A stretch of 64,000 nucleotides of DNA from Maricaulis sp. (GTDB lineage Bacteria > Pseudomonadota > Alphaproteobacteria > Caulobacterales > Maricaulaceae): positions 1 to 64,000 of the forward strand of contig NZ_JASBRW010000038.1 in NCBI RefSeq assembly GCF_030149235.1. The letters are read 5' to 3'. Both the position numbers and the translations under genes were made by a program. Positions 33,056 through 56,158 of this stretch are shown piece after piece. The notes under the pieces are model-generated. The model saw only the letters and a list, made by a program, of their open reading frames with translations. It had not been told where the DNA came from and did not search any database. Position 1 is the stretch's first letter. Every line of letters begins with the position of its first letter.

Positions 33056-33318
33056 GACATGCCCCTTTTTCCCAAGGACAGGCATATTCAAACACACGCC
33101 TGACGGGCGCAAGCGTACGGACACAACAATGCTGACACTACCTCAGCGGGTAGAACGCGGGAGTGGCGGGACACGACACGGAGTTGGGGCTCCGCCTTGG
33201 GCAAGCTCGTATCCCGCCTGACCGCGCGTTCGAGATGGATGTCTTGGGGCCATCCGGGTGCGGTCATAGGATATTAGCGCGCGCGGCAGGGCGTGCGTGT
33301 GACGGCGGTCACGCCGGC

Positions 33319-37501: not shown

Positions 37502-37512
37502 GATGGCCACCG

Positions 37513-38223: not shown

Positions 38224-38247
38224 GCCGCATGTTAGACGCAATTGGTT

Positions 38248-39162
38248 ATGACCGAGCATGAGCATCCCTATGCAAGCCAAGCTTACGCTGCAGCGCTCTG
38301 TGCCATGGAAGGGCGCATCGGATTCCTGGAAACACTGGGCATCTGGGTCGAAATCAACCGGATTCCGGAAAGCGACGCCTATGATGCTCGCGGTGTCTAT
38401 CCATTCAGCCCGTCATTGCAGCAAACCGGACAAGAGACCCTGCAGGACGAACTCCGGGCTCTGGGCTTAGTCTCATTAGTCCTGGTGACCGATGCGCTCG
38501 AGGATCAACCAGACACCCTCCTCGCCGCGTTTGATGTTAGACGGAGTTACAAGGAACACTTCACCTATCGCCCGGGATCGGTACAGACGGAGTTTTCGGC
38601 CAATAATCAACGATACCTCAGACGCGCGCGACGGCGATGCCAGTTCCGGGACATTGATCTGGTAGACCATTTTGATGAGTGGATCGCGCTATACGATCAC
38701 CTTATCCGCCGGCACGGCCTGACCGGGCGCCACCAGTTTTCGCACACCTATATGAAGCATCTGGCCCAGTCGGGACGGTTTGATGCAATTGGTGCGTTCT
38801 TTGATGGCCGGCTGATCGGCTGTCAGACATGGCTCACCCACAACGGGTGCGCCTACGGGCATATCGGCGCGTCCAATGATGAGGGTTACCGGCACGGCGC
38901 GGCTTTTGGCCTATACGGTCATGCGATAGAAAAATATGCGGGTTGCAGGGAATTGGACCTAGGGGGAGCGCCGGACCGGGAACGGGTCCCGGGCGGCCTT
39001 AGCAGCTTCAAGAGTGGTTTTGCGAATGGCCGACGGTCTAATTTCCTTCTGGGGAGTATCGCCGACCCATCGCAATATGATGCGCTATGTCGCCTTCACA
39101 AAGCGACACCCCGGCAAGAGGGCTTTTTCCCGGCCTACCGGGGCCCGGCCACGTTATCATGA
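38248..39162 (+). CDS. GNAT/FemAB-like acyltransferase
   Basis: A 304-residue protein with an N-terminal domain of unclear type and a C-terminal GNAT-like half: RYLRRARRRC, HLIRRHGLTGRHQFSHTYMKHL, GAFFDGRLIGCQTWLTHNGCAYGHIGASND and a final LDLGGAPDRERVPGGLSSFKSGF. This order resembles FemAB/BioF2-like acyltransferases that modify sugars or peptides. The start is uncertain: ATG at 38248 or TTG at 38242, neither with a clear ribosome site. Last gene of the aminotransferase-methyltransferase operon. Confidence 0.75.
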   Translation: MTEHEHPYASQAYAAALCAMEGRIGFLETLGIWVEINRIPESDAYDARGVYPFSPSLQQTGQETLQDELRALGLVSLVLVTDALEDQPDTLLAAFDVRRSYKEHFTYRPGSVQTEFSANNQRYLRRARRRCQFRDIDLVDHFDEWIALYDHLIRRHGLTGRHQFSHTYMKHLAQSGRFDAIGAFFDGRLIGCQTWLTHNGCAYGHIGASNDEGYRHGAAFGLYGHAIEKYAGCRELDLGGAPDRERVPGGLSSFKSGFANGRRSNFLLGSIADPSQYDALCRLHKATPRQEGFFPAYRGPATLS

Positions 39163-41097: not shown

Positions 41098-42360
41098 CTA
41101 TTGCTGCAATGATCGCTGAAATTCCTGCACATCGCGCTGCGCTTGCTGCAGGCTTTCTCGGGACATTTCCAAGGCGAGTGCATCGCGCAACTCGGCAGCA
41201 CCAGCGACCCCAAGTAGAGCGGCGTGCGAAAACCAAAAATATGCGGTTCGGTAGTTTTGTGGAACAAACTGCCCCCGCGCATGGAGCAAACCCAGATTCA
41301 GTGCGGCACTCCCCAGCCCGCCGCGCGCCGCCCGCTCAAGTCTTCGGACCCCTTCCGGTGCGTCGAGCTGGACGCCAAACCCTCCCAGATAGCGCAACCC
41401 GGTCAGGTAAAGCGCGACGATGTCTCCAGCCTGCGCCGCCTGCACCTCGGAGGCCGAAACCGCCTGTGTCCAATCCGGCCGCACCAGCCGTGGATCAACC
41501 GGAAAACCGGTGCGGAGGAGGAGGTCACGGAATGATTCGCCCTCCAGAGCCCGTGCCTGGCGCAAAAGCTCAACGGCGAAGGCCTCATCAAGATCCACCC
41601 CGAAGCCATTCTCGTAAAGTACTGAAAGATTTCGCAAAGCCTGGGGTAGCCCTTGCGCCGCCGCCCGCTCGAACCAGACCACAGCCGCTTCATAATCCCG
41701 TTCGACACCGGTCCCGCGCGAATACATCAGACCCAGATTATTCTGCGCTCGGCCATCGCCCGCTTCGGCGGCACGGCGAAACAGGTTGAACGCCCGGCCG
41801 GGGTCGGCTTCCACACCCCTGCCGTCGAGATAAAGAACACCCAGACTTGTCACCGATGGGGCAAAATCCTGCTCTGCGGCGCGCCGGTACCAGTCGAGCG
41901 CCTCGCCCAGTCGGCTCTCACCGCCATAGGCCTCCAGAGCAACAGCGTAATCATGCGCCATGGAGGCATCGCCCGAGGCTGCCGCCCGCGAGAGCCATTC
42001 AAGGCCCGCGGGCAAATCAGCCGGGCGGCCACGGCCGATAGTCAGTCCCCGCCCGTATTCATTCATCGCCGCTCCCAGGCCCTGCTCGGCGGCGGCGCGA
42101 AACTGATCCATCGCAGCGGCATCATCTTGTGGCAATCCAGTGCCATTGAGCAGCATCGATCCGTAGGCGAGCTGGGCTTCCGCCTCACCGGCCTCGACGC
42201 GCGGCAGCACCAATGCGAGGGCGGCATCCGCATCGCCACGCGCGATGGCGGCCGTGACTTCTTCCTGGAACGTGGACTGAGCCAGGCTGGCGGGCGCAAG
42301 AGCCAGGCCCGCGCTACCGGCCAGGGCCAGCAAGACCGTGCGCAGCACAGGCCTAGTCAT
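41098..42360 (-). CDS. Exported SEL1-like repeat protein
   Basis: A 420-residue protein with a signal peptide (VLRTVLLALAGSAGLALAPASLAQ) and about seven SEL1/TPR-like repeats such as APSVTSLGVLYLDGRG, RAQNNLGLMYSRGTG and ALRNLSVLYENGFG. These repeats usually scaffold protein contacts. Start ATG at complement 42358-42360 overlaps the previous gene's stop (ATGACTAG), so it is translationally coupled. Last gene of the T2SS operon; likely periplasmic. Confidence 0.88.
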   Translation of the reverse strand: MTRPVLRTVLLALAGSAGLALAPASLAQSTFQEEVTAAIARGDADAALALVLPRVEAGEAEAQLAYGSMLLNGTGLPQDDAAAMDQFRAAAEQGLGAAMNEYGRGLTIGRGRPADLPAGLEWLSRAAASGDASMAHDYAVALEAYGGESRLGEALDWYRRAAEQDFAPSVTSLGVLYLDGRGVEADPGRAFNLFRRAAEAGDGRAQNNLGLMYSRGTGVERDYEAAVVWFERAAAQGLPQALRNLSVLYENGFGVDLDEAFAVELLRQARALEGESFRDLLLRTGFPVDPRLVRPDWTQAVSASEVQAAQAGDIVALYLTGLRYLGGFGVQLDAPEGVRRLERAARGGLGSAALNLGLLHARGQFVPQNYRTAYFWFSHAALLGVAGAAELRDALALEMSRESLQQAQRDVQEFQRSLQQ

Positions 42361-43561
42361 TGCGGGCGCGCTCCAGCCATTCGGTAGCGGACTCCTGCGC
42401 TTGTTCAAGCTCTTCCGGACTCAGGAAGCGCGCAACGGCATCGCGTTGCTCTGCAGCCCCGTCGATGCCGGCCGCAGCGGCCAGATTGGACCAGATATGG
42501 GCCTGGACATAATCCTGATTGACCCCATCGCCGGTGGCAAAACGCTGCGACATGGCGAGCTGCGCCCGGGCCGAGCCGGCCTCGGCAGCCCGGCTCTGAA
42601 AATCCAGTCCGCGTCGCGCGTTCTGGGGCAGGACCTCCCCCTCGATATAGAATTCGGCGAGCACGGCGAGCGCATCCGGATCGCCACTCTCGGCCGCCTG
42701 TTCCAGCCAGGCAGCCGAAGGCGCATGACCGCCGCGAGCCGCAGCCCCGACCCAGGACACGGCGTCAAACTCGGACTGAACCGGCATTTCACCATTGGCA
42801 ATCAGGGCGCCCAGCCGGGCATCGACACCCGGGGCTCCGGCGCTGAGCGCGTTGAGATACCAACGCGCCGCTTCTGGGATATTGCGCTCAGTGCCGCGCC
42901 CGGTCTCATACAGCATGCCCAGGATAGGCTGGGCCCGGACCAGGCCGGTCTCGGAAGCCGCCAGGTACCAGCGGAAGGCCTCGGCATCGCTCTGCGCGAC
43001 CCCCCGACCGGTCAGATAGGCATAACCGAGATTGGACTGGGCCCGGACGTCGCCGGCCGCGGCTGGTCGAGCCAGCAGTTCGATTGCCCGCTCCGGGTCA
43101 GCCGCGACCGCCGTGCCCGACAGATAATAGGACCCCAGCACGGTCATCGCTTCCATACTGTCGACATCGACAGCGCGTTGATACCATTCGACCCCGGCCT
43201 CGAGGCTGTCCGCCGCCTCGGCTCGCTCGATATACATCCCCGCCAGCGCTTCACCGGCCGGTGCATATTCAGCGGCATAGGCCCGGGCGAGATACTCTGC
43301 CGCGCGATCAGCATCCGGCTCTACACCGCGTCCGTCGAGATACATCATGCCCAGGCGATACTGGGCCAGCAGATTATCCTCTTCAGCCAGTTCAGCGAGA
43401 ATTTCCGCGGTCCGCGCATAATCGGTCGAAGCGAAGGCTTCCTCGGCATCCGCCATCGAGTACTCACTCGGCGTGTCGCCGCCGCGTGTCACCAGCCAGG
43501 CAATTATGACCAACAGCACCACGACGCCGCCGGCGCCAGCGAAGACATATTCGCGTTTCAT
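42353..43561 (-). CDS. Membrane-anchored SEL1-like repeat protein
   Basis: A 402-residue protein with an N-terminal membrane helix (VFAGAGGVVVLLVIIAWLV) and a tandem of SEL1-like repeats (LAQYRLGMMYLDGRG, RAQSNLGYAYLTGRG, RAQPILGMLYETGRG and further). The large part is predicted periplasmic. Overlaps both neighbours: its ATG overlaps the permease-fusion stop by four bases, and its stop overlaps the next ATG. A partner or assembly factor of the upstream secretion proteins is plausible, by context only. Confidence 0.88.
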   Translation of the reverse strand: MKREYVFAGAGGVVVLLVIIAWLVTRGGDTPSEYSMADAEEAFASTDYARTAEILAELAEEDNLLAQYRLGMMYLDGRGVEPDADRAAEYLARAYAAEYAPAGEALAGMYIERAEAADSLEAGVEWYQRAVDVDSMEAMTVLGSYYLSGTAVAADPERAIELLARPAAAGDVRAQSNLGYAYLTGRGVAQSDAEAFRWYLAASETGLVRAQPILGMLYETGRGTERNIPEAARWYLNALSAGAPGVDARLGALIANGEMPVQSEFDAVSWVGAAARGGHAPSAAWLEQAAESGDPDALAVLAEFYIEGEVLPQNARRGLDFQSRAAEAGSARAQLAMSQRFATGDGVNQDYVQAHIWSNLAAAAGIDGAAEQRDAVARFLSPEELEQAQESATEWLERARND

Positions 43562-46500
43562 TCGCTTCTCTCCCCGACCGGCGCGTCCAGGCGCCGGGTG
43601 ATCGTATAGGTCGAACCCGCTGCCAGCGGCTCGCTCAATTCTGTTGTCGAGCCATCCGGCCAGCGGATGGACAGGCTGTCAGCCGCACTTTGATCGCCCA
43701 GACCAAAATGCGCCACAGGTGCGTCAAATGACATGAAGCCTCCGCCAAGCTGAAGCTCACGCACCTGCAGCCCCTCATCCGTACGCAGCTCGACACGGGC
43801 ACCGATGGCGTCACGATTGCCGGCCTCGTCGACCAGCCGGACCGCCAGGGCATTGGCATCCTGCACGTTATTGCGGAAGTGCACCGGCGGCCCGTTGACC
43901 GGAACGGTGAGGATATCGAGATCGCCATCGCCGTCGAAATCGGCCAGCGAGGCCGCGGCCGTCATCAGATAGTCTTCCAGACCCCATTGCGGCGTGAGCT
44001 CCTCAAAATCGCCATTACCGCGATTGCGCAGGAAGATATTGGACGGCGTGACCTCATTGGGCACCCAGGTCCCGTTGACGATGTAGACGTCCTGCCAGCC
44101 ATCGAGATCGAAATCGCCGGTTGAGACATCCCAGCTCCAGCCGCCAATCTCAAGCCCGCGCGCCTCGGCCGTCTCGTCGTAGCGGCCGTCCTCACGAAGC
44201 TCCATTAGGACATTCCGAGCCAGAATCTGGCGCACAGCCTCGTCCTGTTCACGCGCCGTCATGGTCCGGGAGGGCCAGAAATGCAGATCGCAATAAGAGC
44301 GGATGCGAGTCTGGTCGGTCGCGATCAGTCGACAAAGGCCGGGATCATTGCTCTGGATGGCCAGGTCCTTGATCATCATCGCCCGGCATTCCGCCTGCAT
44401 CACCCCGGTGAGCTCGGCGCAACGGCGGGCATTGGCCGGATCCAGGCTGTTGCCGGCGCGATACCAGCTCTTGATGTCGATATTTTCCTGGCACACGGCG
44501 CGGTCTTCGGCCCGTTCGATGTCGAGGCAGTAATCCTCGATCGGCTGCATCCGCAAGCGGCTCGATATGCCCGAGGCCCGGCCGGCGATCTGGGCCGCGT
44601 AGAGCTCCATATTGCCGTCATTGGTGAAATCGACCGAACTCAACGACATGGTGGTGGTCGTGGTCATCGGTATGACCCCGTCCTGATAGGTAATGGCGTC
44701 AAACCCGCCACGGCCATCGCCGATATAGAAGTAATCCGGCACCTCGAAATCATTGCCGACAATGAGATCGAGCGCGGCATCATTGTTGATATCGCTGAGC
44801 AGGATGGAGAGGGTTTCACCGGGGATACCCGGCAGGTCGTGATAGCGTCCACCGGACAGACGACCGCCATCATTGAACAGGATGCGATTGCGCGATTCCT
44901 CGCCCGGGACGCGGCGATACCAGCCAGCCGCCCAGTTTCCGAGAGCGGCATCGATATAGCCATCCCGGTCAACATCGCCGAAGCTGGCCGCCAGGACCAG
45001 CGGCGCATTCTCGCGATTGGCGACGGGCCGCAATTGCGACACATCAAACGTGCCGCCGGTATTGGGCAGGACGTAGACACCCTCGCGATAGGTCGTCAGG
45101 AACAGGTCAGGATAGCCAGAATTGTCGATATCGACGAGGACAGCATTGAAAACCGGCATGTCCGCAATGGCACCGAGATCGACCGGCATGCGGGTGAACT
45201 CGCCGCTGCCATCATTGCTGTAGAGGTAGAGACCACCGCGCGTGGAGGCGAAAACCAGGTCGATATCGCCGTCACCATCAATATCGCCGGAGGATATGCT
45301 GCGTCCTTCCCAGAAAGGCGGCCACATATCACCGAAGGAGAATTCGACCCCGTGATCAATGCCGATATGCCAGGCTTCCTGCCGGGTGAAAATCGTGTCC
45401 CCAGCCGGTGAGACCGGGTTGAAGGGCGTGCTCTCGACCTCGATCCGCGTCGCTCCGCCGGCGGCGGGGGCTGCGGTGGCAGCGACAGGCTCGTCGGCGG
45501 TTGAGGATTGTTCGAGCCGGGTCTCGACCTGCTCGATCGGGGCACTGAGAAGGTCCAGCGCCCGCGCGGTCTGATACCGGTGCCAGGCATCGGCGCCGAA
45601 ACCCGCGAAGAGGCCGAGCACGGCCACCATTGCGGCCAGCATCCAGGCTGCACGCCAGCCAATAGCGCCGCCGACAATGAGGAAGGAGTAGACCGAGAAG
45701 CTGCCAAGGGTGAAGACCAGGGTCATGACATAGCCGTGCCCGACGCCGGAATTCATCAAGGCACCGGAGACCACAACATCAAACCCGATCGGCACCGGGA
45801 AGAACGTGCCGGCGACTGCGGCGATCACCAGCAGCAGCGGGCTCGACTCGCGCCCGGCCAATGCGTCCGGCGGCAGGAGGTTGGCGACCAGCGCCCCGAG
45901 CACACCGGCCAGGATCATCAGCGGCACGGCGACCCGGATGATGAACCAGAGGTTCCGTGCATAATCGCGGACAAAACCCGTCAGGGCCGAGGTCAGGTCC
46001 TCTTCCAAAAAAACATCGTCATCATCACCGGACGCCGTGGGCGCCTCAGGCCCGGCACGCCCGTCATCAACGGTGCGCAGGAGTTTTTCCGGCGGAATGA
46101 AACGGCACAGGATCGGCACACCGATGAGAATGACCAACAGGCTGAGCGCCACTTTGGTCACGGCGATGTAGAAGGGCAGGATGGAGAAGGCCATCGTCAG
46201 CACGACGAAATTCAAGGTCGGCGAGGCCACCATGGCCGACAGCGTCGTCTCGGCCCGCGAGCCCCCTTGATAGAGACCCTTGGCAATCGGCGCGGCGCAA
46301 TTGACGCAAACGCCAAGCGGCGCCCCCAACACCATGCCGTACAGCGAATTGGCGAAGGGTCCGGAGAAACTGCGCCGCCGCAAATAGCCCAGCACTGTCA
46401 GGAAGGCGGCGCCCATCAACAAGCCGAACGTCATGCCCTTCTTGTTGGTATCGATCCAGTTGACCGAGGAGTAGGACCAGCGCTGCAAGAAGGGCTGGTC

Positions 46501-46695
46501 CGGCGTCACCGGGATCACCGCCTCGAAGCTGAGCGGATCTTCCAGCGTGATCGCGCCGGACATCATCGCCTTTTCATCCAGTGACGGATAACGCGAACCG
46601 GTCCAGAACATGACCGCCAGAACGACAACCAGCAAGCCGGCTAGGGCCAACCGGACATACCGTCCCTGGTCCGAGCGCAAGGTCAGGGTCGTCAC
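43558..46695 (-). CDS. ArsP-like permease fused to an FG-GAP/UnbV (CRTAC1-type) propeller
   Basis: A 1045-residue single frame. Residues 10-365 form a polytopic DUF318/ArsP-like permease (about eight helices; paired Cys130 and Cys133 in GVCVNCAAPIAKGL and SPTLNFVV). A linker follows, then about residues 450-940 form an FG-GAP/VCBS-type beta-propeller with calcium-loop motifs such as GDIDGDGDIDLVF and ADFDGDGDLDIL. Residues 940-1035 form a UnbV/ASPIC domain (IGARVELRTDEG, ISIRWPDG-type). Within the propeller, about residues 715-800, is a Cys-rich insert. The two parts are normally separate proteins. Start and stop both overlap neighbours by four bases (ATGA). Confidence 0.88.
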   Translation of the reverse strand: MTTLTLRSDQGRYVRLALAGLLVVVLAVMFWTGSRYPSLDEKAMMSGAITLEDPLSFEAVIPVTPDQPFLQRWSYSSVNWIDTNKKGMTFGLLMGAAFLTVLGYLRRRSFSGPFANSLYGMVLGAPLGVCVNCAAPIAKGLYQGGSRAETTLSAMVASPTLNFVVLTMAFSILPFYIAVTKVALSLLVILIGVPILCRFIPPEKLLRTVDDGRAGPEAPTASGDDDDVFLEEDLTSALTGFVRDYARNLWFIIRVAVPLMILAGVLGALVANLLPPDALAGRESSPLLLVIAAVAGTFFPVPIGFDVVVSGALMNSGVGHGYVMTLVFTLGSFSVYSFLIVGGAIGWRAAWMLAAMVAVLGLFAGFGADAWHRYQTARALDLLSAPIEQVETRLEQSSTADEPVAATAAPAAGGATRIEVESTPFNPVSPAGDTIFTRQEAWHIGIDHGVEFSFGDMWPPFWEGRSISSGDIDGDGDIDLVFASTRGGLYLYSNDGSGEFTRMPVDLGAIADMPVFNAVLVDIDNSGYPDLFLTTYREGVYVLPNTGGTFDVSQLRPVANRENAPLVLAASFGDVDRDGYIDAALGNWAAGWYRRVPGEESRNRILFNDGGRLSGGRYHDLPGIPGETLSILLSDINNDAALDLIVGNDFEVPDYFYIGDGRGGFDAITYQDGVIPMTTTTTMSLSSVDFTNDGNMELYAAQIAGRASGISSRLRMQPIEDYCLDIERAEDRAVCQENIDIKSWYRAGNSLDPANARRCAELTGVMQAECRAMMIKDLAIQSNDPGLCRLIATDQTRIRSYCDLHFWPSRTMTAREQDEAVRQILARNVLMELREDGRYDETAEARGLEIGGWSWDVSTGDFDLDGWQDVYIVNGTWVPNEVTPSNIFLRNRGNGDFEELTPQWGLEDYLMTAAASLADFDGDGDLDILTVPVNGPPVHFRNNVQDANALAVRLVDEAGNRDAIGARVELRTDEGLQVRELQLGGGFMSFDAPVAHFGLGDQSAADSLSIRWPDGSTTELSEPLAAGSTYTITRRLDAPVGERSE

Positions 46696-47489
46696 AATTC
46701 ACTCTCCTCGTTACAGATCTGGTTCCCCAGGCTTTCCGGCGCCTGTGCCACCCACTCGAACGGGCGAGCATCGCTGGCCCCGAAATGTGCCAACGCGAAG
46801 CGTTCCCGACTGCGGCCACCCTCGCTTTCCACACGGGCCAGCAGTGCGACGCGCACGCCGGTCAGGTCATTGAGGTCAGCATTCAATCCGGTCTGGTCCT
46901 GCGGCTGCGGTGTCCCGCCAAAGACCGTGAGCTGGGAAGAAAGGCACGACCAGAGCGCCGGGCTCATTCCCCGCACCGCAAGCAATTCCTCAACCGAGAC
47001 GAAGGGGCGATTGGCCGGCTTGCGGCGCCAGCCATCGGGATAGGCACCGGCCTCGCCGCCCTCGGGCCGGGCCTGGGTATCATTATCACGCCAGTCGAGT
47101 ATGCCCTGGGCCAGGCGGCGGGCCCGGCCGGGCGCGAGACCGGCGCGCTGCAGCAGATCCATCCAGCGGGTCTCGTCGGCCATGTTGATATCCATCAGCC
47201 CCTGCTGCCGGGCGAGGAAGACCGTGACCTGCCCGCCCTCGAGCGGAAAACTGCGCGGAAGATCACCGATCGCGGCCCGGCCGGACAGGGCCAGGTCGAA
47301 GGCGACCAGATCAAGGGCCGAGCTGAGCTGCGCGTCGAGCTGGCTGTCCAGGCGCTGTGCCGCCGTCATCCGGGCCTGTTGCTGCACCAGTCCCGTGGCC
47401 CCGGCGAGCAGAACCGCCACCAGGAGCGAGGTCCACAGGACATAGAGGAGAGCGCTACCGGTATCTTTGCGGGGCGGGTCGCAGGTCAT
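46692..47489 (-). CDS. gspK: Type II secretion minor pseudopilin GspK
   Basis: A 265-residue protein. A short leader ends in KDTG, followed by SALLYVLWTSLLVAVLLAGATGLV; like other GspK proteins it lacks Glu at position +5. The body has the typical MDINMADETRWMDLLQRAG, LAQGILDWRDND and FVSVEELLAVRGMSPALW. GspK caps the pseudopilus with GspI and GspJ. I start at MTCDPP (complement 47487-47489), four bases after the gspD stop. Stop overlaps the permease fusion. Confidence 0.9.
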   Translation of the reverse strand: MTCDPPRKDTGSALLYVLWTSLLVAVLLAGATGLVQQQARMTAAQRLDSQLDAQLSSALDLVAFDLALSGRAAIGDLPRSFPLEGGQVTVFLARQQGLMDINMADETRWMDLLQRAGLAPGRARRLAQGILDWRDNDTQARPEGGEAGAYPDGWRRKPANRPFVSVEELLAVRGMSPALWSCLSSQLTVFGGTPQPQDQTGLNADLNDLTGVRVALLARVESEGGRSRERFALAHFGASDARPFEWVAQAPESLGNQICNEESEL

Positions 47490-47493
47490 CGGG

Positions 47494-49536
47494 CTAGTCG
47501 AACAGGTTGGGCTGGCGGGCTTCCAGAGCTTCAAGTTCACGCCGCATGTGCGACAGCGCATCAGCAGCATCTTGCTCGTTCTCGATAATTCGCGGCGTCA
47601 GGAAGATCACCAGCTCGCTGCGCTCACTACTCAGACTGCGATCCTTGAACGCATTGCCGACGCCGGGAATGCGGCTGAGCAGCGGAATGCCGCTCTCATT
47701 GTCGGAATGGCTCTCGCGGATCAGACCGCCGAGGGCAATTGTCCGCTCCGAGCGTACCGCGACGGTCGAGGTGAATTCGAGCGTCTGGATGGTCGGGCTG
47801 TCGATCCCGGATGTGGTCGTCGGGCGCACGCTGGAAACTTCCTGGTCGACTTCGAGCACAACCACGCCGGAGGCGTTGATGCGCGGCGTCACTTCCAGGA
47901 TCACGCCGGTATCGCGCATTTCCACGGTCGAGACGATGGGCGCGCTGGGATCGGTCACCGCCGACGCCGTCTGGGTAATGATCGGCACTTCATCACCGAC
48001 GCGCAGGTTCGCGGTCTGGTTATTCTGCACCATGATCGACGGCGCCGAGAGCACGGTGACATCGGTGAGCGAATTGAGCGCCGAAAGCGTCGCCGTCAGG
48101 TCCGCACCGGTAAAGGCGTAGTTGAAGCCCGGGAAGGTCGGATTGGCGGTGCCATTGGCATTATCCGTGAAGGAAATGTTCGACGTGCCATCACCGCTCT
48201 GGTTCTCGAAGAACCAGCGCACACCGAAATTCAGCCCATCAACCAGCCGCACCTCGGCGATGGTCGCTTCGATCAGCACTTGCGGCGGCATGACATCCAT
48301 GCGCTCGAGGAGCTCCAGAATTTCCCGGTATTCCTGGTCCGTTGCCCGGATGATCAGGGCGTTATTCAGCTGGTCGGGGATGATCGCGAGACGCCCCTCA
48401 GGACCCTCATCCCGGACCTCACCGGAATCGGCAGCGCGTTCAGAAGCGAGCGTGCTCTGGAATACCGCGCCATCACCGGCCGCGCCGCCAGCGAACGCGG
48501 CGGTAATCTGGGACGCCAGCGTAGCAGCCGGCGCATTGCGGGCAGTGTAGTAACGCAGCCGGCGCTCATCGCCACCAGACGGCGTATCGAAACGCTCGAC
48601 CAGTTCGCGAACCTGCTCGAAACCGGCGCGATCACGGGCGGCGACAAAAAGCAGGTTGGGCCGCGGCAGGGCGATGGTCCGCACCGCACCGGAGGCCATA
48701 CCCATCCCGGTCAATACCGCATCAACTTCGCTCTTGGCAGCCTGGGCGTTGACGTAGCGAAGCTCATACATGCCAAAGACGCGATCGGTCAGGAACGGCC
48801 GGTCAAAAGTCCGGACCGCATCCTGGGCAGCGCGGACTTCAGAAGCCGGCCCGGCCAGTACCAACACGCCTTCTTCATCACGCGGCACAGCCTCGACGCG
48901 GCTGGACAGGAAGGGGTCAATCAGCGTCAGGATTGAGCTCGGATTGGTATGCTCGACCGGCAGGACCAGCCCGCCATAACCGATCTGGCCGCTGCCGCTC
49001 AAATTCGCCCGAACTTCGCCGGACTGGGTCAGCAGGAAGCCGGATTCGCGCTCGACAAGCGCATAACCGCTTTCCGACAGCACGGTTTCCAGCGCCGTCA
49101 GCGCTGTGCGGGCCGATGTCGGCTCTGCCGCGGTCAGGGTGATACGGCCCTCGACACCGGTCGCAACCATGACCGGCTGGCCCAGCGCTTCCTCGATAAT
49201 GGCTCGCACCGCATCGACCACGGGAGCATCAACGAATTCGAGGCGCATGGTGCGGTCATCGAGATCAGATCCGCCCCGGCGCGACAGGGCACCGCGGACA
49301 TTGCGCTCCTGGTAAAACACCAGGCGTTCCGGCTCGGCGACCGGATCAGCTTGCGGAGCGGCCGGCTCGGGCGTGACGGCGCGCTCAAGCGGCGCGGCCT
49401 GTACACGTTCTGCCGGTAGCGACACCGGTGCGGGGTCAGCCTGGCGACCGGGCAGGGTCAGGCCGGTTGCGCAGCCCGTCAGCGCCAGCGCAGACAGCGC
49501 CGCGGCAAACCCTTTGTAATAGCCGTGAATTTTCAT
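47494..49536 (-). CDS. gspD: Type II secretion outer-membrane secretin GspD (lipoprotein form)
   Basis: A 680-residue secretin. The signal ends in a lipobox (ALALTGC), so it is lipidated and may reach the outer membrane without a separate pilotin. After a Pro/Ala-rich linker come N-domains (LEFVDAPVVDAVRAIIEEAL, IDPFLSSRVEAVPRDEEGVLVLAG, YELRYVNAQAAKSEVDAVL) and the secretin core (QVLIEATIAEVRL, LSAPSIMVQNNQTANLRVGDEVPI, IALGGLIRES and SELVIFLTPRII). GGGGGAG lies just before the ATG (complement 49534-49536). Confidence 0.95.
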   Translation of the reverse strand: MKIHGYYKGFAAALSALALTGCATGLTLPGRQADPAPVSLPAERVQAAPLERAVTPEPAAPQADPVAEPERLVFYQERNVRGALSRRGGSDLDDRTMRLEFVDAPVVDAVRAIIEEALGQPVMVATGVEGRITLTAAEPTSARTALTALETVLSESGYALVERESGFLLTQSGEVRANLSGSGQIGYGGLVLPVEHTNPSSILTLIDPFLSSRVEAVPRDEEGVLVLAGPASEVRAAQDAVRTFDRPFLTDRVFGMYELRYVNAQAAKSEVDAVLTGMGMASGAVRTIALPRPNLLFVAARDRAGFEQVRELVERFDTPSGGDERRLRYYTARNAPAATLASQITAAFAGGAAGDGAVFQSTLASERAADSGEVRDEGPEGRLAIIPDQLNNALIIRATDQEYREILELLERMDVMPPQVLIEATIAEVRLVDGLNFGVRWFFENQSGDGTSNISFTDNANGTANPTFPGFNYAFTGADLTATLSALNSLTDVTVLSAPSIMVQNNQTANLRVGDEVPIITQTASAVTDPSAPIVSTVEMRDTGVILEVTPRINASGVVVLEVDQEVSSVRPTTTSGIDSPTIQTLEFTSTVAVRSERTIALGGLIRESHSDNESGIPLLSRIPGVGNAFKDRSLSSERSELVIFLTPRIIENEQDAADALSHMRRELEALEARQPNLFD

Positions 49537-49598
49537 ACGCTCCCCCTGCACAGCGTGCAGTTTAGACGCAATCTGTGAGCGTCTCCAGCGAATTAACC

Positions 49599-50021
49599 TT
49601 ACTCGTTCAGCTCCAGCAGTACCGATTGCGAGCCCTGATCGAAGCGCGCCCCGCGGCCGGTAATTTCAACCAGGACAAAGCCCTCGAGCTCCTCGCCCAG
49701 GCGCAGGGACACAACACCATCGGAGCCGGACACCAGAACCACGGTCTGGTCCTCGGTTTCGACCAGGCCAATGAGGCGGTAATCCTCAAGCGGCGAGGCC
49801 TGGCGGACAGTCTGGTTCTGCGCCCCTATGCGGCCCGGTTGCACCCATTCGGCCAGCGGTTCAAGCGAGACGGTCTCGGCCTTGTGATCATCCGACCCCA
49901 ACCCGGCTTGCGACGTCGGATGGCTGATGGCCGCCGGTCCGGGCCAGTAGGACAGGACCGCGCCAAGCAGCAACAGGCCGGTTAGGCCGATCGCCAATAT
50001 GTCTCCCCGGTCACGCAGCAT
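49599..50021 (-). CDS. gspC: Type II secretion GspC-like inner-membrane protein
   Basis: A 140-residue protein with an N-terminal membrane helix (ILAIGLTGLLLLGAVLSYW) and a short periplasmic homology-region domain (EDYRLIGLVETEDQTVVLVSGSDGVVSLRLGEELEGFVLVEI), typical of GspC, without a PDZ domain. It links the inner-membrane platform to the GspD N0 domain. Unusually it sits late in the operon, after gspM and just before gspD; its start overlaps the gspM stop by 11 bases. Confidence 0.85.
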   Translation of the reverse strand: MLRDRGDILAIGLTGLLLLGAVLSYWPGPAAISHPTSQAGLGSDDHKAETVSLEPLAEWVQPGRIGAQNQTVRQASPLEDYRLIGLVETEDQTVVLVSGSDGVVSLRLGEELEGFVLVEITGRGARFDQGSQSVLLELNE

Positions 50022-50559
50022 TGCCGGCCTCCAGCTGATAGCGACAGGCCATGGTCAGACTGACCCGGATACGGCCATCGGCCAGCGCCAGGAGCTCGAA
50101 TTCCATGACATCGAGATCGATCAAGGCCGGCCCGGACAGCAAGGTCAGCGCGGTCGGCGCATCGGCAATAAAGGCGATATCCGCAGCGAGGCTGGCCGCC
50201 TCGGTCGTGAGCGGCAGATCGTAGATTTCCGTCACCCGCAGGATATCGACCGGAGCATTGGCCAAGGCCTCGGAAAAGGCCGCCAGTCCTTCACTTAACT
50301 CGCCCTCGGCGATGCCTTGCGACAGGCGCATATCCAGCGCGGCAGGCTCCAGGCCGGCTGCTTCAAGCGTAGCCTCGAGGGTCTGGGCAAGACGTGCCTC
50401 GGCTACGTCGAGCCGGGCAACCTCGCTGGCGAGGCCGGCGCGAGCACTGAGTGAGGCTGCAAGCTCGCGGCCGGCAAACACAAGCGGCATGGCCAGGGCT
50501 AGCACCAGGACAGGCAGGGCCAACGCCCCGGCCATGCGTATCAGCGCCGGACTATTCAT
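50011..50559 (-). CDS. gspM: Type II secretion GspM-like inner-membrane protein
   Basis: A 182-residue protein with one N-terminal membrane helix (AGALALPVLVLALAMPLVF), an Ala-rich coiled coil and a ferredoxin-like periplasmic domain ending TMACRYQLEAGN. This is the GspM (subtype b) layout; GspM pairs with GspL in the assembly platform. I start at MNSPAL (complement 50557-50559), overlapping the gspL stop by eight bases (ATGAATAG). Confidence 0.82.
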   Translation of the reverse strand: MNSPALIRMAGALALPVLVLALAMPLVFAGRELAASLSARAGLASEVARLDVAEARLAQTLEATLEAAGLEPAALDMRLSQGIAEGELSEGLAAFSEALANAPVDILRVTEIYDLPLTTEAASLAADIAFIADAPTALTLLSGPALIDLDVMEFELLALADGRIRVSLTMACRYQLEAGNAA

Positions 50560-51502
50560 CACCGTCCTCCGGATACAGAGGCAGAACAAGACGAGTCTGG
50601 CGGAATCCCACTTCCCCGTCATGGAATTGGCCCTCAAGGACAATCTGGTCGCCGCCCTCATAACGCAGACGATGCACGCTGTCGGGACGCTCCGGATCGC
50701 TGGCGGCGGAGGCAGCGACATCGAGTACATGCGCCAATACCGGGGCCGGCGCCCCGGCGATGGCTTCCAGCGCCTCGGCCCGGGCGCGCAGCTGGCGGAT
50801 TTCCGCGATCGCCGCAGATCGGGCCGACTGGGCCTCGGCATTGGCAATCTCGAGCTGGGCATTCCAGCTGATCAGGCAGACTAGCAGCGCAGCGTAGACG
50901 AGGCCGGCACGTCGCAGGAGTTTCATCGCGCCATCCCAGGGACGGTGCGCGCCGAACTGGAAGCGGGCCGCGCCATCGGCGGCCACCTCCCCGGCGATCC
51001 GTCCTGTAGGCCGGCCTTCAAGTGCCGCCAGGGCCTGTTCGAAATCGCTGCGCCGGACCAGAGCCAGCTCGATCTCGGCCATGCCATTGGCCTCGCCAAG
51101 CACCTCATAGCCAAACGCCACATCTTCGGGCGGCAGGGGCGAGAGGTCGGCCAGGCGCAGGGCCACAGCGCGGCGGCCGCGGCGCAGAGCGGTGCTGCTG
51201 ATCCTGTCGCGGCGACGGAACTGGCGCTCCGGCGCGATCAGAACCAGGCGCGCATCCGGCTTGGCTTCATGCCCACCTTGCGTCCGGCGCGGCTCGCCGA
51301 GCCAGCTGCACTCAACAAGACCGACGCGCTTCAACCCGCCATCGGCTTGCAGCTCGACAATCTCGACCGGGTCACGACGGCCAAGCCCCCGCAAGAAAGC
51401 CGGCACCAAGGCGCGAAGATCGGCCAGCCGTGCGGCGATGAAGGCCGACAGGGTCGTCAGCCCGCCGGTCAGGGCGCTATCCGAGATTTTCAGCTCAGCC
51501 AT
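50552..51502 (-). CDS. gspL: Type II secretion GspL-like protein
   Basis: A 316-residue protein with an N-terminal cytoplasmic actin-like remnant (residues about 1-185), a membrane helix near residue 200 (LVYAALLVCLISW), a coiled coil and a periplasmic ferredoxin-like domain. GspL recruits the GspE ATPase to the membrane. Shorter than many GspL. I start at MAELKIS (complement 51500-51502); the upstream frame lies inside gspJ. Overlap with the gspJ stop is eight bases. Confidence 0.82.
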   Translation of the reverse strand: MAELKISDSALTGGLTTLSAFIAARLADLRALVPAFLRGLGRRDPVEIVELQADGGLKRVGLVECSWLGEPRRTQGGHEAKPDARLVLIAPERQFRRRDRISSTALRRGRRAVALRLADLSPLPPEDVAFGYEVLGEANGMAEIELALVRRSDFEQALAALEGRPTGRIAGEVAADGAARFQFGAHRPWDGAMKLLRRAGLVYAALLVCLISWNAQLEIANAEAQSARSAAIAEIRQLRARAEALEAIAGAPAPVLAHVLDVAASAASDPERPDSVHRLRYEGGDQIVLEGQFHDGEVGFRQTRLVLPLYPEDGDE

Positions 51503-52097
51503 CCAGGCAGGCCCCCGCATCACTATCGAAATCGCAATCGAACCGGGCGCCGCCGCCGACCAGAGCCTCGACCCGCCAGGCACCGCGGCCGGGCTCGTCG
51601 ATCTCCAGCGACACCAGCCGCGGCAGGTCCGGGCCGGGCCAGCTGTCATACCAGGCCGCACGATCCGTATTTTCCAGCTTACCGTAATAGGCCAGCCGGG
51701 CCCGCGATAGGCCATCGATCAGCATCACCGCATCGGTATTCGCATTGATCGCGCCCAACGGTGTCAGCGTCATCGAGACAGCATCGCCTTGCACCTGCAC
51801 ATTGACCTGCGACGGCGTCATCCGGCCCGGCAGCTGGGCCAGGGTCTGAAAACCCAGACTGCTACCTTCGAATGCCCCATTGGCGCCGTTGGGCCCGCGA
51901 TAAGAATAAGTCAGCGCATCACGCAGCGTCTCATTGAGCAGGACCCGGTTTTCCTGTCCCGCAGCCAGGCGCGTCACGCCGGCCTGGGCGTCGGTCATGC
52001 CGCGCAGGACCAGCACCAGGCCTACCGATATGGAGGCCATCAGCACGATACCGATCAGGGCTTCGATCAGGGTGAAGCCGGCTTGCCGCTCGCTCAT
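51495..52097 (-). CDS. gspJ: Type II secretion minor pseudopilin GspJ
   Basis: A 200-residue pseudopilin with the leader MSERQAG and the processed N-terminus FTLIEALIGIVLMASISVGLV (Glu at +5). The globular part has ENRVLLNETLRDALTY and ends in an Asp/Cys-rich stretch (CDFDSDAGACLDG) that might bind calcium or form a disulfide. It is part of the tip complex with GspI and GspK. Overlaps gspI by four bases (ATGA). Confidence 0.9.
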   Translation of the reverse strand: MSERQAGFTLIEALIGIVLMASISVGLVLVLRGMTDAQAGVTRLAAGQENRVLLNETLRDALTYSYRGPNGANGAFEGSSLGFQTLAQLPGRMTPSQVNVQVQGDAVSMTLTPLGAINANTDAVMLIDGLSRARLAYYGKLENTDRAAWYDSWPGPDLPRLVSLEIDEPGRGAWRVEALVGGGARFDCDFDSDAGACLDG

Positions 52098-52471
52098 GGC
52101 TCGCCTCCCGGATTAAGGCGGCCCGGTTCGAGATAGATGATCTCGAAGGAAAGCGCCGCATATCCGGTATGGGTCAGATTGGCCCGGCTCATCACCGCGC
52201 CTGTGCGCGGATCGACGGGGCGATCGACTGGGGTGATGGCGATCTGCCAATCCGGATAGAGCTCAGCCGTTGTTTCTGGCGGCAGGCCGGCGCGCAGGCG
52301 TGCGGCAATATTCTGGGCCTCAATGGTCGCGGTCTGAACCGCCTCCGCCCGCTGACCGGCCCGCAAGGCGCCCGTCATGCCGGTCATGGCCATAGCGATC
52401 ACGGCCGCTGCAATGGCGCTGGCAACCAGCACCTCGGTCAACACGTATCCGCCCTCGCTCGGCCTAGTCAT
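52094..52471 (-). CDS. gspI: Type II secretion minor pseudopilin GspI
   Basis: A 125-residue pseudopilin: leader MTRPSEGG, processed N-terminus YVLTEVLVASAIAAAVIAMAM with Glu at +5, and a short globular domain (AEAVQTATIEAQNIAARLRAG, PDWQIAITPVD). Initiates tip assembly with GspJ and GspK. Tyr rather than Phe stands at +1. Start overlaps the gspH stop by eight bases (ATGACTAG). Confidence 0.88.
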   Translation of the reverse strand: MTRPSEGGYVLTEVLVASAIAAAVIAMAMTGMTGALRAGQRAEAVQTATIEAQNIAARLRAGLPPETTAELYPDWQIAITPVDRPVDPRTGAVMSRANLTHTGYAALSFEIIYLEPGRLNPGGEP

Positions 52472-52925
52472 CGCTGACCCGCCCCGTGATCGGGTCCACC
52501 CGCAGCACGCGCCGGCCCGCAGCGTTTTCCAGCTCGACCTCAAGCGCCGGCCAGGCGAGGCGTTCGGGGGGCAGAAAAACCCGCGCGGCGGGCTTGAACC
52601 CGTCACCATCATCGCGCTGCCAGCGCGCCGTCAGGCCCTCACTCCAGACCCGTTCAACGCCGAGCATGTCGATGCGATAGCCATCCTCGGCAATCATGAT
52701 CACCGCCGGCTCGCCCCGTCCTCTCACCAAGAGACGTACCCGGCGCAGATCATCGGCCAGCTGGTCGGACTGGCGCTGCAGGGCCCAGCCCTGCGACCGG
52801 CCCGACAGCGAAACACCGACCAGGGTCAGGGCGGTCGCCATGACGATCAGCGCGATGAGGAGTTCAAATAGGGTAAAGCCGGCCTGAGACGACCGGCGCG
52901 TATCAGCTGCGTGAGAGATCGGCAT
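52464..52925 (-). CDS. gspH: Type II secretion minor pseudopilin GspH
   Basis: A 153-residue pseudopilin with a leader ending RRSSQAG and processed N-terminus FTLFELLIALIVMATALTLVGV. The body (DDLRRVRLLVRGRGEPAVIMIAEDGYRID) matches GspH. Start at complement 52923-52925 with GGGAG upstream inside the end of gspG, so the two overlap by 23 bases. Confidence 0.88.
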   Translation of the reverse strand: MPISHAADTRRSSQAGFTLFELLIALIVMATALTLVGVSLSGRSQGWALQRQSDQLADDLRRVRLLVRGRGEPAVIMIAEDGYRIDMLGVERVWSEGLTARWQRDDGDGFKPAARVFLPPERLAWPALEVELENAAGRRVLRVDPITGRVSDD

Positions 52926-53349
52926 TTTCTCCCTCGCCGCCTTCCTCGCCATCGCTACCAAGCGTGCGAATGGTGAAACGGTCGCCGGTCTCTTCCAGCG
53001 TATAGAGATAGGGTCGCCCCCAGGGGTCGGTGAGACCGGATTCCTCGCGGAAATACGGGCCTTGCCACATCGGGCTGTTTTCCGGCGCCTCGACCAGCAC
53101 GCGCAGTCCGTCCTCGGCCCGCGGATATCGGCCCATATCGATATAGTAGAGCTCAAGCGAGGTCGCGATCGAGGCCATCTGGGCTTCCGCCACCTGGCCC
53201 CGGGACTGCCCGAGATAGCGCATCACATTCGGTGCCACGAGTGCCGCGAGAAGCGCGATGATCAGCAGCACGACGAGGATCTCCAACAGGGTAATCCCGG
53301 ACTCCTTGTCGCCACAGCGCAGGATCTCATTCGGATTGGCTTGGGTCAT
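52903..53349 (-). CDS. gspG: Type II secretion major pseudopilin GspG
   Basis: A 148-residue major pseudopilin. The cleavage site is KESG followed by ITLLEILVVLLIIALLAALVAPN; Ile replaces the common Phe at +1 and Glu is at +5. The conserved C-terminal DLLRYPRxEDGL-like element (MGRYPRAEDGLRVLVEAPE), GPYFREESGLTDPWGRPYLY and a calcium-type acidic tail follow. The leader is longer than usual. The ATG overlaps the gspF TGA by one base. Confidence 0.92.
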   Translation of the reverse strand: MTQANPNEILRCGDKESGITLLEILVVLLIIALLAALVAPNVMRYLGQSRGQVAEAQMASIATSLELYYIDMGRYPRAEDGLRVLVEAPENSPMWQGPYFREESGLTDPWGRPYLYTLEETGDRFTIRTLGSDGEEGGEGENADLSRS

Positions 53350-54560
53350 CAGAACACCACTTCATTCAAGCTGAGAACGCCGGACATCACCGACAGGATT
53401 ACACCGCCAACCGCCAGGCCAAGCAGGGCTGTCAGGCCGGGGCCAATGAGGTTGAGCGCTCGACCGGCGAAACGCTCCTGGGCCGTCTGGCTGAGCTGGG
53501 CCGCCCGCGAAAGCATGGCTGCCAGTTCACCGCTCTTCTCCCCGAGGGCGACCAGACGCAGGGTTTCCGCCTCAAACAGATACGTGCCGGCCAGAGCCTT
53601 CGACAATGCCGTGCCGGCGCGCAAGCGCGACGCTGCATCATCCAGGCGCGCTCGAGCCAAGGCGCTGTCCAGCGTGGCCCGCGCCACGGCCTCGGCCCGC
53701 GCCATCGGTGCCCCGGAAGCCAGAAGAAAGCCCAGTGCCCCGCAATAACGCGCCGCCAGCCCCTTCCGGGTCAGTGAACCCAGCACCGGCAGCCCCAGCC
53801 GAGCCCGGTCGAGAACGTCTGGATAGGTCCGGGCCAGCATCTGCACGCCGATCGCCAAGCCGATCACCGCCGCCGGCAACCAGATCCCGAAATCACGCAG
53901 GAAACTGCCCGCCGCGAAGACGAAAGCGGTTTGCGGCGGCGGGGTCGCATTCGCGTTGGCGAAGACGGTCTCGAATTGTGGCAACACGATGTAGGCGAGA
54001 AACAAAAGCGTCACGAAAATGAAGCCGACCAGAGCGGCCGGATAGACCAATTGCCCGATCAGGGTCTGGCGCATCTCGTTTTCCGCCTCGATCTGGTCGG
54101 CATAGCGCCGCAGCACCGCACCGAGATCGCCGGTTTCCTCACCGGCGCGAGCTAGACCGATCAAAAGGTTGGGCGGCTGGGCGGGGTCGCTGGACAGGGC
54201 CGCGGTCAGGCTCTCGCCCGCCATGATACGGGCCGACAGGCGCTCGAGGAAGCGCCGCAGGACCCGGCGTTTTTCGCCCTGGGCCAGATTATTGACCGCT
54301 TCGGCTAACCCGATCCCGGCCTGCAACAGATCCGCGAGGCCGCGCACGAAGGCCTCGATCTCGGCCGGGCTAAGACGCGCCCGCGAACCGCTGAAAGCCG
54401 CAAAACTGACCCGGGCCGGGGACACATCGATCGGGGTGACGCCCAGCCGACGCACCTGGTTAAGGGCATCGGCCTCATCGCGACCGGCGAGCTCGCCGCG
54501 CACGGTTTCGCCGTCGCGGGTTTCACCCAGATAGCGCCAGATGCGGGCCGGTTCGTTCAT
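53349..54560 (-). CDS. gspF: Type II secretion inner-membrane platform protein GspF
   Basis: A 403-residue polytopic protein with two tandem T2SSF domains (about residues 65-190 and 265-390) and three membrane helices (near 165, 220 and 375). Motifs include LLQAGIGLAEAVNNLAQ and LLASGAPMARAEAVARATLD with FGEKSGELAAML-like ALGEKSGELAAML. Connects GspE with the pseudopilus base. Start overlaps the gspE stop by four bases. Confidence 0.93.
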   Translation of the reverse strand: MNEPARIWRYLGETRDGETVRGELAGRDEADALNQVRRLGVTPIDVSPARVSFAAFSGSRARLSPAEIEAFVRGLADLLQAGIGLAEAVNNLAQGEKRRVLRRFLERLSARIMAGESLTAALSSDPAQPPNLLIGLARAGEETGDLGAVLRRYADQIEAENEMRQTLIGQLVYPAALVGFIFVTLLFLAYIVLPQFETVFANANATPPPQTAFVFAAGSFLRDFGIWLPAAVIGLAIGVQMLARTYPDVLDRARLGLPVLGSLTRKGLAARYCGALGFLLASGAPMARAEAVARATLDSALARARLDDAASRLRAGTALSKALAGTYLFEAETLRLVALGEKSGELAAMLSRAAQLSQTAQERFAGRALNLIGPGLTALLGLAVGGVILSVMSGVLSLNEVVF

Positions 54561-56158
54561 CGCGGGCCTACGCCCCCAATGGCTCGGCGGATCTCCTCGG
54601 GCGAGGTCAGCCCGTCGCGCAACTTCGCCTCGGCGTCCTCGGCCATGGATACAAAGCCCTGGGCCTCAAGCGCCGGCTGGAATTCATGCTCGAAGCGGGC
54701 GCCGCGGATAGCGCTGCGCAGCTCTTCATCGACTTCAAAGGCCTCGGCCAACGCCAGCCGCCCCTTATAGCCGGTGCCTTCACAGGCTTCGCATCCCGTG
54801 CCCTGACAGGTCTGGCAGGTCCGTCGGACCAGGCGCTGCCCCATCACGCCGACCAGGGTCGAGGCTAGCAGATAGTCCTCCACCCCCATATCGATCAGCC
54901 GCAAAATGGCCGAGGGCGCATCATTTGTGTGCAAGGTGGAGAGAACGAGATGGCCCGTCATCGCCGCCTGGACCGCGGTCTTGGCTGTCTCGGTATCGCG
55001 GATCTCGCCGACCATGACGACATCAGGGTCATGGCGCAGGAAGGAGCGCAGAGCGCTGGCAAACGTCACGCCAATGGCCGGATTGGTCTGCGACTGGGCG
55101 ATGCCGGCGAGACGGTATTCGATCGGGTCCTCGATGGTGAGGATTTTGCGCTCGCCATCGGCAAGCCGGCGCAGGAAGGCGTAAAGCGAGGTGGTTTTGC
55201 CACTGCCGGTCGGGCCGGTAACCAGGATCAGGCCATGCGGCTTGGACAGGGCGCGGCTGGCCAGCTGGGTGACCTGCTCGGAAAAGCCGAGCTCGGTAAG
55301 TTCATGCAGGCTGGCATCGGGATCGAGCAGGCGGATCACCACGCCCTCGCCGAACTGGCCCGGCACGACCGAGACCCGGAGATCGATCGAGCGCCCCTCG
55401 ACCGGCAGGCTGAGGCGACCATCCTGGGAGCGGCGGCGCTCGGCGATATCGAGATCGGCAAGGACCTTGATACGCGAGATCAGCGCCAGCGCCTGGGCCG
55501 CAGGCAGCGATCGCTCATCGCGCAACACCCCGTCGACCCGGAAGCGCACCCCGGCATCGCGGGCACCGGGCTCGATATGGATATCACTGGCGCGCGCTTT
55601 CACGGCGGCCGTGATCAGCACATTGACCAGGCGCACCGTCGGCGCCGCGCCGGCCAGGTCCCGCAGGCGTTCCGCATCGGCGCTAACATCGACCGCATCG
55701 AGCCCGTCCTCGGCCATGACCTGGCCGAACCGGTCCTCATAGGCTGCGTTGAATTGCGAGATGGTGGCGACCAGGGGCCGGACGGGCCGTCTCAGGGCGA
55801 AGCTGAGACCGTCAATGGCCGTCCGATGCGCCGGATCGACGACCGCGGCAATGATCGCCTCACCGTCGAGACGCAAGGGCAGGATACGCTCGCGCCGCAG
55901 GAATTCCGCGTTGAGCTCGCGGCGCCAGTCATCCGGTCCGTCTTCGGTCCGCAGATCGGCATCGCTGGCGAGCGCCAGCCCGGCCTCGCTGGCAAAGCTT
56001 TCGGCGAGCATGGTTTCCGACATCAGCCCGAGCTGGGAGATGATCTGGTCGACCGGTTCTCCGGTACGCTCCGCCAGCTCGAGCGCATGCGCCGCATCGG
56101 CCGTCGAAAGACGGCCCTGGGTCTGCAATTGGTCGAGGCGGTCGCGGATCGTGCTCAT
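54557..56158 (-). CDS. gspE: Type II secretion ATPase GspE
   Basis: A 533-residue cytoplasmic ATPase, first gene of the operon. N-terminal T2SSE-N domain, then an ATPase core: Walker A TGPTGSGKTT (residues 314-323), Asp box IEDPIEYRL, Walker B DVVMVGEIRD, His box STLHTND. A zinc site is formed by Cys448, Cys451, Cys456 and Cys459. Drives pseudopilus assembly. No further gsp gene (gspN, gspO) is in the window. Confidence 0.95.
   Translation of the reverse strand: MSTIRDRLDQLQTQGRLSTADAAHALELAERTGEPVDQIISQLGLMSETMLAESFASEAGLALASDADLRTEDGPDDWRRELNAEFLRRERILPLRLDGEAIIAAVVDPAHRTAIDGLSFALRRPVRPLVATISQFNAAYEDRFGQVMAEDGLDAVDVSADAERLRDLAGAAPTVRLVNVLITAAVKARASDIHIEPGARDAGVRFRVDGVLRDERSLPAAQALALISRIKVLADLDIAERRRSQDGRLSLPVEGRSIDLRVSVVPGQFGEGVVIRLLDPDASLHELTELGFSEQVTQLASRALSKPHGLILVTGPTGSGKTTSLYAFLRRLADGERKILTIEDPIEYRLAGIAQSQTNPAIGVTFASALRSFLRHDPDVVMVGEIRDTETAKTAVQAAMTGHLVLSTLHTNDAPSAILRLIDMGVEDYLLASTLVGVMGQRLVRRTCQTCQGTGCEACEGTGYKGRLALAEAFEVDEELRSAIRGARFEHEFQPALEAQGFVSMAEDAEAKLRDGLTSPEEIRRAIGGVGPR

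Follow-up and report, generated by a model that had tools for sequence, protein, structure and literature searches.

The window analysed here comprises the first 64,000 nucleotides of contig NZ_JASBRW010000038.1 of a Maricaulis sp. (assembly GCF_030149235.1) and contains a gene for an ArsP-type permease fused to a CRTAC1-type propeller. Judged by its homologs, the fusion is a true, conserved protein, and its membership in a module of type II secretion system (T2SS) genes, two genes for SEL1 proteins, a gene for a small protein, CL3, and a gene for a phage-tail-fibre-like protein, CL2, is well supported. It is tempting to speculate, with somewhat less than even confidence, that the fusion is an accessory, located in the inner membrane, of a T2SS that is specialised for phage-tail-fibre-like surface proteins, namely CL2 together with CL3. 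Both halves and the T2SS are of known kinds. No account of the fusion or its module was recognised in the open-access literature searched, a scope that excludes most subscription journals, and the terms FG-GAP, VCBS and ASPIC do not occur in the main text of a paper (PMC7176098) in which ArsP is assigned to a larger superfamily.

A first-pass annotation, made from the letters of the window, had proposed that a single frame joins a polytopic permease to a CRTAC1-type propeller, which is borne out by Pfam, a structure model and a structure match to CRTAC1. The frame, which is present as a single copy in the source genome, is open throughout its 1045 codons on the minus strand, and Pfam assigns ArsP_1 to residues 115-365 (50.5 bits, cut-off 32.3), FG-GAP_3 to five stretches (118.7 bits, over the cut-off) and UnbV_ASPIC to residues 963-1030 (71.9 bits, cut-off 23.4). 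A scan of genome contigs obtained 110 relatives, of which 80 loci were kept, the nearest being 89% identical to the fusion. Together with 11 loci from other relatives and the window, these form a set of 92 copies, some of which possibly stem from the same species and two of which (L048 and L049) are places on a single contig that were counted separately. All 92 copies cluster together and 88 of them have at least 990 residues; three of the four shorter copies are cut by a contig end, and the fourth, L081, lacks the permease half and lies on a contig of a metagenome-assembled genome (MAG) that turns abruptly into unrelated sequence, probably as a result of an assembly join. Merger of two genes by a sequencing error is therefore ruled out by the conservation of the fusion and its invariant residues across 92 loci, and the two halves are not generally separate elsewhere, L081 being the only copy without a permease half away from a contig end. 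An alignment of 32 copies shows an identity of 63% per column on average.

Carriers among the 80 scan loci are Maricaulis and its kin, many Rhodobacterales and some other alphaproteobacteria, in addition to MAGs labelled Nitrosomonas (L024) and Granulosicoccaceae (L033). When the source genome and 60 relatives were searched, 13 of the 61, the source genome included, matched most of the protein, in one case in two pieces on two contigs. In two evenly drawn samples, one of 289 genomes from the class and one of 299 genomes from the phylum, full-length matches were confined to the source genome and one Rhodobacteraceae genome, and the fusion thus belongs to particular families rather than to the class. 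Matches to the propeller only were mostly found in frames of about 300-660 residues, and 14 of the 20 matches of the ArsP_1 profile, which were spread over 15 genomes, lie in frames of more than 1000 residues.

In the window, the fusion gene shares four bases with gspK (GTGA) and four with the gene for SEL1 protein A (ATGA), whose start lies over the stop of the fusion, exactly as the first-pass annotation had read these junctions, and gspE, gspF, gspG and gspD lie upstream in the same direction, which supports an operon-like arrangement with the T2SS genes. The linkage to gspK that the annotation had noted is likewise supported, but gspK adjoins the fusion in only 10 of the 80 loci, all of Maricaulis type, and the annotation overlooked that the fusion is tied to an entire module, which includes the phage-tail-fibre-like protein. 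The order of the Maricaulis type is gspL-C-D-K, fusion, SEL1, SEL1, CL3, CL2, whereas many Rhodobacterales have gsp genes with a prepilin peptidase gene, SEL1, SEL1, CL3, CL2, other genes and then the fusion, which is thus located at the opposite end of the same module. A SEL1, CL2 or CL3 gene is present in the available flank of 74 of the 80 loci and a gsp gene in that of 45; among the 62 loci whose 8-kb flanks are complete, the respective numbers are 61 and 38. In these locus clusters, gsp names were assigned by position and sequence, and plasmid records name such genes alike. The gene caller used for the cluster counts may take antisense frames; in the window it took one at 42338-43609 (plus strand) and displaced the first SEL1 gene, which is why the window's own cluster counts are low.

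Co-occurrence was assessed in 248 Rhodobacteraceae genomes from 247 genera, in which the fusion was found in 14, CL2 in 13 and GspD over its cut-off in 34. All 14 genomes with the fusion possess GspD, compared with 20 of the 234 others (p = 5e-14, Fisher test), and CL2 is found in 13 of the 14 but in none of the 234 others (p = 9e-21), both tests treating genomes as independent. GspD lies within 25 kb of the fusion on the same contig in nine of the 14 genomes, and CL2 lies on the contig of the fusion in nine of 13. The module resembles other T2SSs in that gspD, E, F, G and K are recognised by profile and further genes by position; it differs from them in its frequent companions, the two SEL1 genes, CL3, the tail-fibre-like protein and the permease-propeller, none of which is known as a classical T2SS part.

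CL2 carries two cysteines, Cys44 and Cys49, which are invariant in 30 aligned proteins, and it matches PHROG tail-fibre families only weakly. A tblastn search of 50,697 phage records with CL2 gave no match at E 1e-5, and a close phage origin was rejected on the basis of both results. CL2 was detected in four of the 299 phylum genomes: the source genome, one Rhodobacteraceae genome and two genomes from outside the class, one with a strong match (G724) and one with a match over about 100 residues only (G839). In G724, a single protein of 609 residues (L119:9270-11099) combines a part that by eye resembles CL3, a Peptidase_S74 chaperone and, with 53% identity, a CL2 part; CL3 and CL2 thus probably work together in a single fibre.

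As judged from alignments, the permease core keeps the residues of its family. Cys130, Asn132, Cys133, Pro136, Pro159 and Asn162 are invariant in the 91 copies that hold this region, and Pro302 and Asp306 in all 92. The two cysteines occupy the residues at which the first-pass annotation had placed them; they are, however, not special to the fusion. In an alignment to Escherichia coli YraQ, CVNCAAP of the fusion stands opposite CTCCAAP, SPTLN opposite NPVLN and the stretch with Asp306 opposite a stretch bearing a glutamate, and five standalone permeases from fusion-bearing genomes have CSC at the position of the cysteine pair, which is therefore a variant of the family motif; a sixth standalone permease, L100, had been translated in a wrong frame and was excluded from this comparison. 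This motif, a cysteine motif with a proline in the first half, is a feature drawn from the alignment rather than a published definition. In the AlphaFold2 model, helices are broken at about 128-130, 161-162, 299-304 and 333-334, and Cys130, Cys133, Asn162 and Asp306 are located at or beside these breaks; the broken helices are predicted to place Cys130, Cys133 and Asp306 in the middle of the membrane. The permease half thus shares with the ArsP/YraQ family (PF03773, TCDB 2.A.119) an ArsP_1 match over the cut-off, the cysteine motif, the proline and asparagine of the following helix and, in the model, broken helices. In contrast to that family, the fusion bears a propeller of about 650 residues and is linked to a T2SS, and it was not seen with resistance genes.

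These features bear on several other explanations. The fusion could be a resistance transporter of the ArsP, YraQ or SO_0444 type that exports metals or metalloids and has acquired an outer domain, as the ArsP_1 assignment and distant matches to the NCBIfam models efflux_SaoE and CuZnOut_SO0444, a Cu/Zn exporter, might suggest. Both matches, however, are far under the equivalog cut-offs (40.2 bits against 325 and 27 bits against 300), the 25 most frequent of the 109 families encoded nearby include none for resistance to metals or arsenic, and the linkage is instead to T2SS and fibre genes, so that this explanation is improbable. Another idea, which we consider slightly more doubtful still, is a redox conduit, in which Cys130 and Cys133 would work in the manner of DsbD-type proteins and hand on reducing or oxidising equivalents to cysteines in the propeller insert and in CL2. 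The invariance of this pair, of six cysteines in the insert and of Cys44 and Cys49 in CL2 is consistent with such a route. DsbD and CcdA, however, use membrane-embedded cysteines on two different helices, an arrangement that was not found in the permease half, where C130 and C133 are the only invariant cysteines of the alignment; moreover, cysteines occupy the same place in YraQ and, as CSC, in the standalone permeases, and the CL2 pair is kept in G724, which has no ArsP_1 match. A third explanation, which goes back to the first-pass annotation, is that the permease no longer transports but signals the presence of a small ligand to the propeller, or receives such a signal from it, with the propeller gating secretion. 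A large outer domain on a permease would suit such a sensor, but strict conservation of the permease core and the lack of any signalling domain in the fusion by Pfam or NCBIfam make it very unlikely.

The AlphaFold2 model, which was built from 32 sequences, is of fair to good quality (pLDDT 81.8, pTM 0.79). Mouse CRTAC1 (9etn) is the best solved match of the propeller half by sequence (E 5.4e-15) and, in a Foldseek search of the Protein Data Bank with the predicted model, also by fold (E 1.9e-18, TMt 0.69), where integrin alpha chains are next in the list. Like CRTAC1 and other ASPIC-UnbV proteins, the propeller half combines FG-GAP repeats with a terminal UnbV_ASPIC; unlike them, it is anchored in the membrane via the permease and carries a helical insert at about residues 705-830. 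Six cysteines of this insert are invariant across the 91 copies that include it, with a spacing which we take to resemble that of disulfide-linked helical hairpins. Loops 104-114 and 343-350 are basic, with hardly any acids, acids outnumber bases in loops 34-70, 273-287 and 368-400, and the long loop 196-246 is of mixed charge. If the nine segments read from the model are right, these charges suggest a cytoplasmic N-terminus and a periplasmic propeller; the side of the membrane proposed in the first-pass annotation is thus probably the right one.

The module is also found on plasmids. A tblastn search of 72,556 plasmids returned 50 records, eight of which, all from Rhodobacterales, cover at least 80% of the query, and T2SS genes are annotated on all eight, most of which were viewed in part. 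On the 54-kb plasmid pDOK1-4-5, the fusion is found side by side with a T2SS set, genes for an A24 peptidase and for tetratricopeptide and SEL1 proteins, a hypothetical gene that takes the place of CL3 and a gene for a 'tail fiber domain-containing protein'. Plasmid records name the fusion 'FG-GAP-like repeat-containing protein', thereby passing over the permease half, and the record of pW43A splits its copy into three pieces. A giant immunoglobulin (Ig)-like protein follows the fusion on four plasmids. On the plasmid of Roseovarius faecimaris (L134:542-8788), the genes for the prepilin peptidase and the T2SS are adjoined by three 'tail fiber domain-containing' genes, with a fourth located elsewhere on the plasmid; the fibre slot seems to have been multiplied there. 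T2SS genes occur on about 8% of non-mobile Sulfitobacter plasmids according to a paper (PMC13386836) that also refers to biofilm plasmids. Polysaccharide genes are frequent in the plasmid stretches viewed, and rhamnose genes are present on two plasmids. These two carry the rhamnose genes together with replication initiator A, in which they may resemble the Roseobacter 'biofilm plasmids' that Michael et al. are said to have described in 2016.

Sulfotransferase genes are enriched beside the fusion. In the loci outside Maricaulis, 157 genes within two positions of the fusion were eligible and 143 of them were given to Pfam, as were 143 of 157 genes drawn at random from 220 that lie four or more positions away. 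The 14 near genes left out all encode at least 469 residues and include one sulfotransferase-like gene, and the 14 far genes left out are nine of at least 430 residues and the last five of the list, all from L081. Among the near genes, Sulfotransfer_3 was found in 15, Sulfotransfer_1 in 10 and Sulfotransfer_2 in nine, where one gene may match several families, whereas the Sulfotransfer families are missing from the 25 that are most frequent among the 143 far genes, the lowest of these 25 having two members. Custom sulfotransferase profiles, which were built from clusters hand-picked beside the fusion and of whose 58 caught proteins 15 are without the motif looked for, match a gene at most two positions from the fusion in 26 of the 68 loci outside Maricaulis; in 26 of the 68, a sulfotransferase lies between CL2/CL3 and the fusion, and matches drop from 22 of 102 genes at distance one to none of 35 at distance eight. 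Six of the eight plasmids have annotated sulfotransferases, and in one of these six a phosphoadenylyl-sulfate reductase gene adjoins the fusion, while two sulfotransferase genes and a glycosyltransferase-like gene lie near a divergent fusion (L124) that has no gsp gene nearby. All this would agree with a role in sulfation or surface polysaccharides, in which the fusion serves a sulfated glycan or surface protein by exporting a small sulfur compound or by-product and the proximity of the T2SS is secondary. However, 42 of the 68 loci have no sulfotransferase within two genes, the custom profiles have the bias just described, none of the nearby window genes tested matches a sulfotransferase family, and GspD accompanies the fusion in 14 of 14 genomes. 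A link to sulfation is thus possible but unlikely.

Table 1. The fusion gene, its two halves and the module genes in the window.
Feature	Position	Strand	Basis or remark
Permease-propeller fusion gene	43558..46695	minus	1045 codons, GTG start
Permease half, residues 1-390	45526..46695	minus	N-terminal helix and ArsP_1 region (Pfam, model, invariant residues)
Propeller half, residues 391-1045	43558..45525	minus	FG-GAP repeats and UnbV_ASPIC, helical insert at about 705-830 (Pfam, model, structure match)
gspK	46692..47570	minus	Pfam T2SSK_1st 56.2 bits (cut-off 26.2); NCBIfam GspK 61.9 against 130, below cut-off
gspD (secretin)	47494..49551	minus	TIGR02517 359.3 bits, over cut-off 351.35
GspC-like, 140 aa	49599..50021	minus	label from position and recall; no Pfam match
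Open frame at expected place of GspM	50011..50862	minus	position only; true start uncertain
GspL-like	50552..51715	minus	label from position and cluster; no Pfam match over cut-off
Pseudopilin-like	51495..52097	minus	N_methyl
Open frame between two pseudopilin genes, probably pseudopilin	52094..52612	minus	position only; no Pfam match
Pseudopilin-like	52464..53156	minus	N_methyl at residues 88-113; true start probably later
gspG	52903..53349	minus	TIGR01710 126.1 bits, over cut-off 88.85
gspF	53349..54560	minus	TIGR02120 264.7 bits, below cut-off 424
gspE	54557..56158	minus	TIGR02533 519.5 bits, below cut-off 630.25
SEL1 protein A	42353..43561	minus	Pfam; downstream neighbour of the fusion
SEL1 protein B	41098..42408	minus	Pfam
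CL3, small module protein, 174 aa	40452..40976	minus	no Pfam family
CL2, phage-tail-fibre-like, 390 aa	39257..40429	minus	on two plasmids, the gene in this position is labelled 'tail fiber domain-containing protein'

Further genes surround the module in the window (Table 1). Just upstream of gspE, a frame that runs past the end of the window (56284-63999, minus strand) encodes a giant Ig-like repeat protein with Big_12 in eleven stretches; such a giant also neighbours the fusion in seven loci of Rhodobacterales, two of which share a contig. It was considered as a cargo of the T2SS and set aside, its C-terminus looking like that of an autotransporter. On the other side of the module, genes for a DegT aminotransferase, a methyltransferase and a GNAT acetyltransferase (36290-39162, plus strand) perhaps form a surface-sugar set, and a TIR-domain protein with TPR repeats (31010-33124, minus strand) is encoded near a protein with TPR-S and a nucleotide cyclase (28362-30254, minus strand).

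For the role of the fusion as an accessory of a fibre-dedicated T2SS, the following mechanism can be proposed. The ArsP-type permease with its broken helices is predicted to reside in the inner membrane and to be followed by the periplasmic propeller, which may dock the fibre protein, or the pseudopilus or SEL1 partners, or help them to mature in the periplasm. The permease might pass a small thiol-binding solute, such as a metal, a metalloid or a sulfur compound, across the inner membrane for the step that takes place at the propeller, and CL2, as the gene order suggests, would be the substrate of the T2SS. The exported fibres would serve attachment and biofilm formation, a role in keeping with the polysaccharide and sulfotransferase genes that surround the module on plasmids. 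A more specific version, to which we give a rather low probability, is a T2SS with a built-in transporter, whose permease feeds a solute or metal to the periplasmic propeller, which in turn loads or modifies fibre proteins before they exit through the secretin; such a kit would be found in marine alphaproteobacteria, both on chromosomes and on biofilm-type plasmids.

Several observations weigh against a T2SS accessory for fibre proteins. Neither a SEL1 nor a gsp gene is present in the available flank of 19 of the 80 loci, in part owing to short contigs, and five of the 80 have none of SEL1, gsp, CL2 and CL3, including L019 with full flanks. GspD lies on another contig in four of the 14 Rhodobacteraceae genomes with the fusion and 83 kb away in one, CL2 lies on another contig in four of 13, and genome G496 has the fusion without a CL2 match. 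T2SSs do not need the fusion, since the 20 of 234 genomes mentioned above have GspD over the cut-off without it, and the architecture may conversely have a role apart from the T2SS, since the divergent fusion L124:8024-11341 of a Caulobacterales genome (35% identity) has no gsp gene in 18 kb. Furthermore, the profile search found no ArsP_1 match in G724 and G839, so the fibres do not always need the permease, and the permease could have lost transport altogether.

T2SSs are mainly regarded as machines that export folded enzymes. If the proposed role is true, a T2SS that is coupled to a fibre-like protein and a permease-propeller would extend protein secretion by a transport step, and the plasmids of roseobacters would carry a new class of attachment factor.

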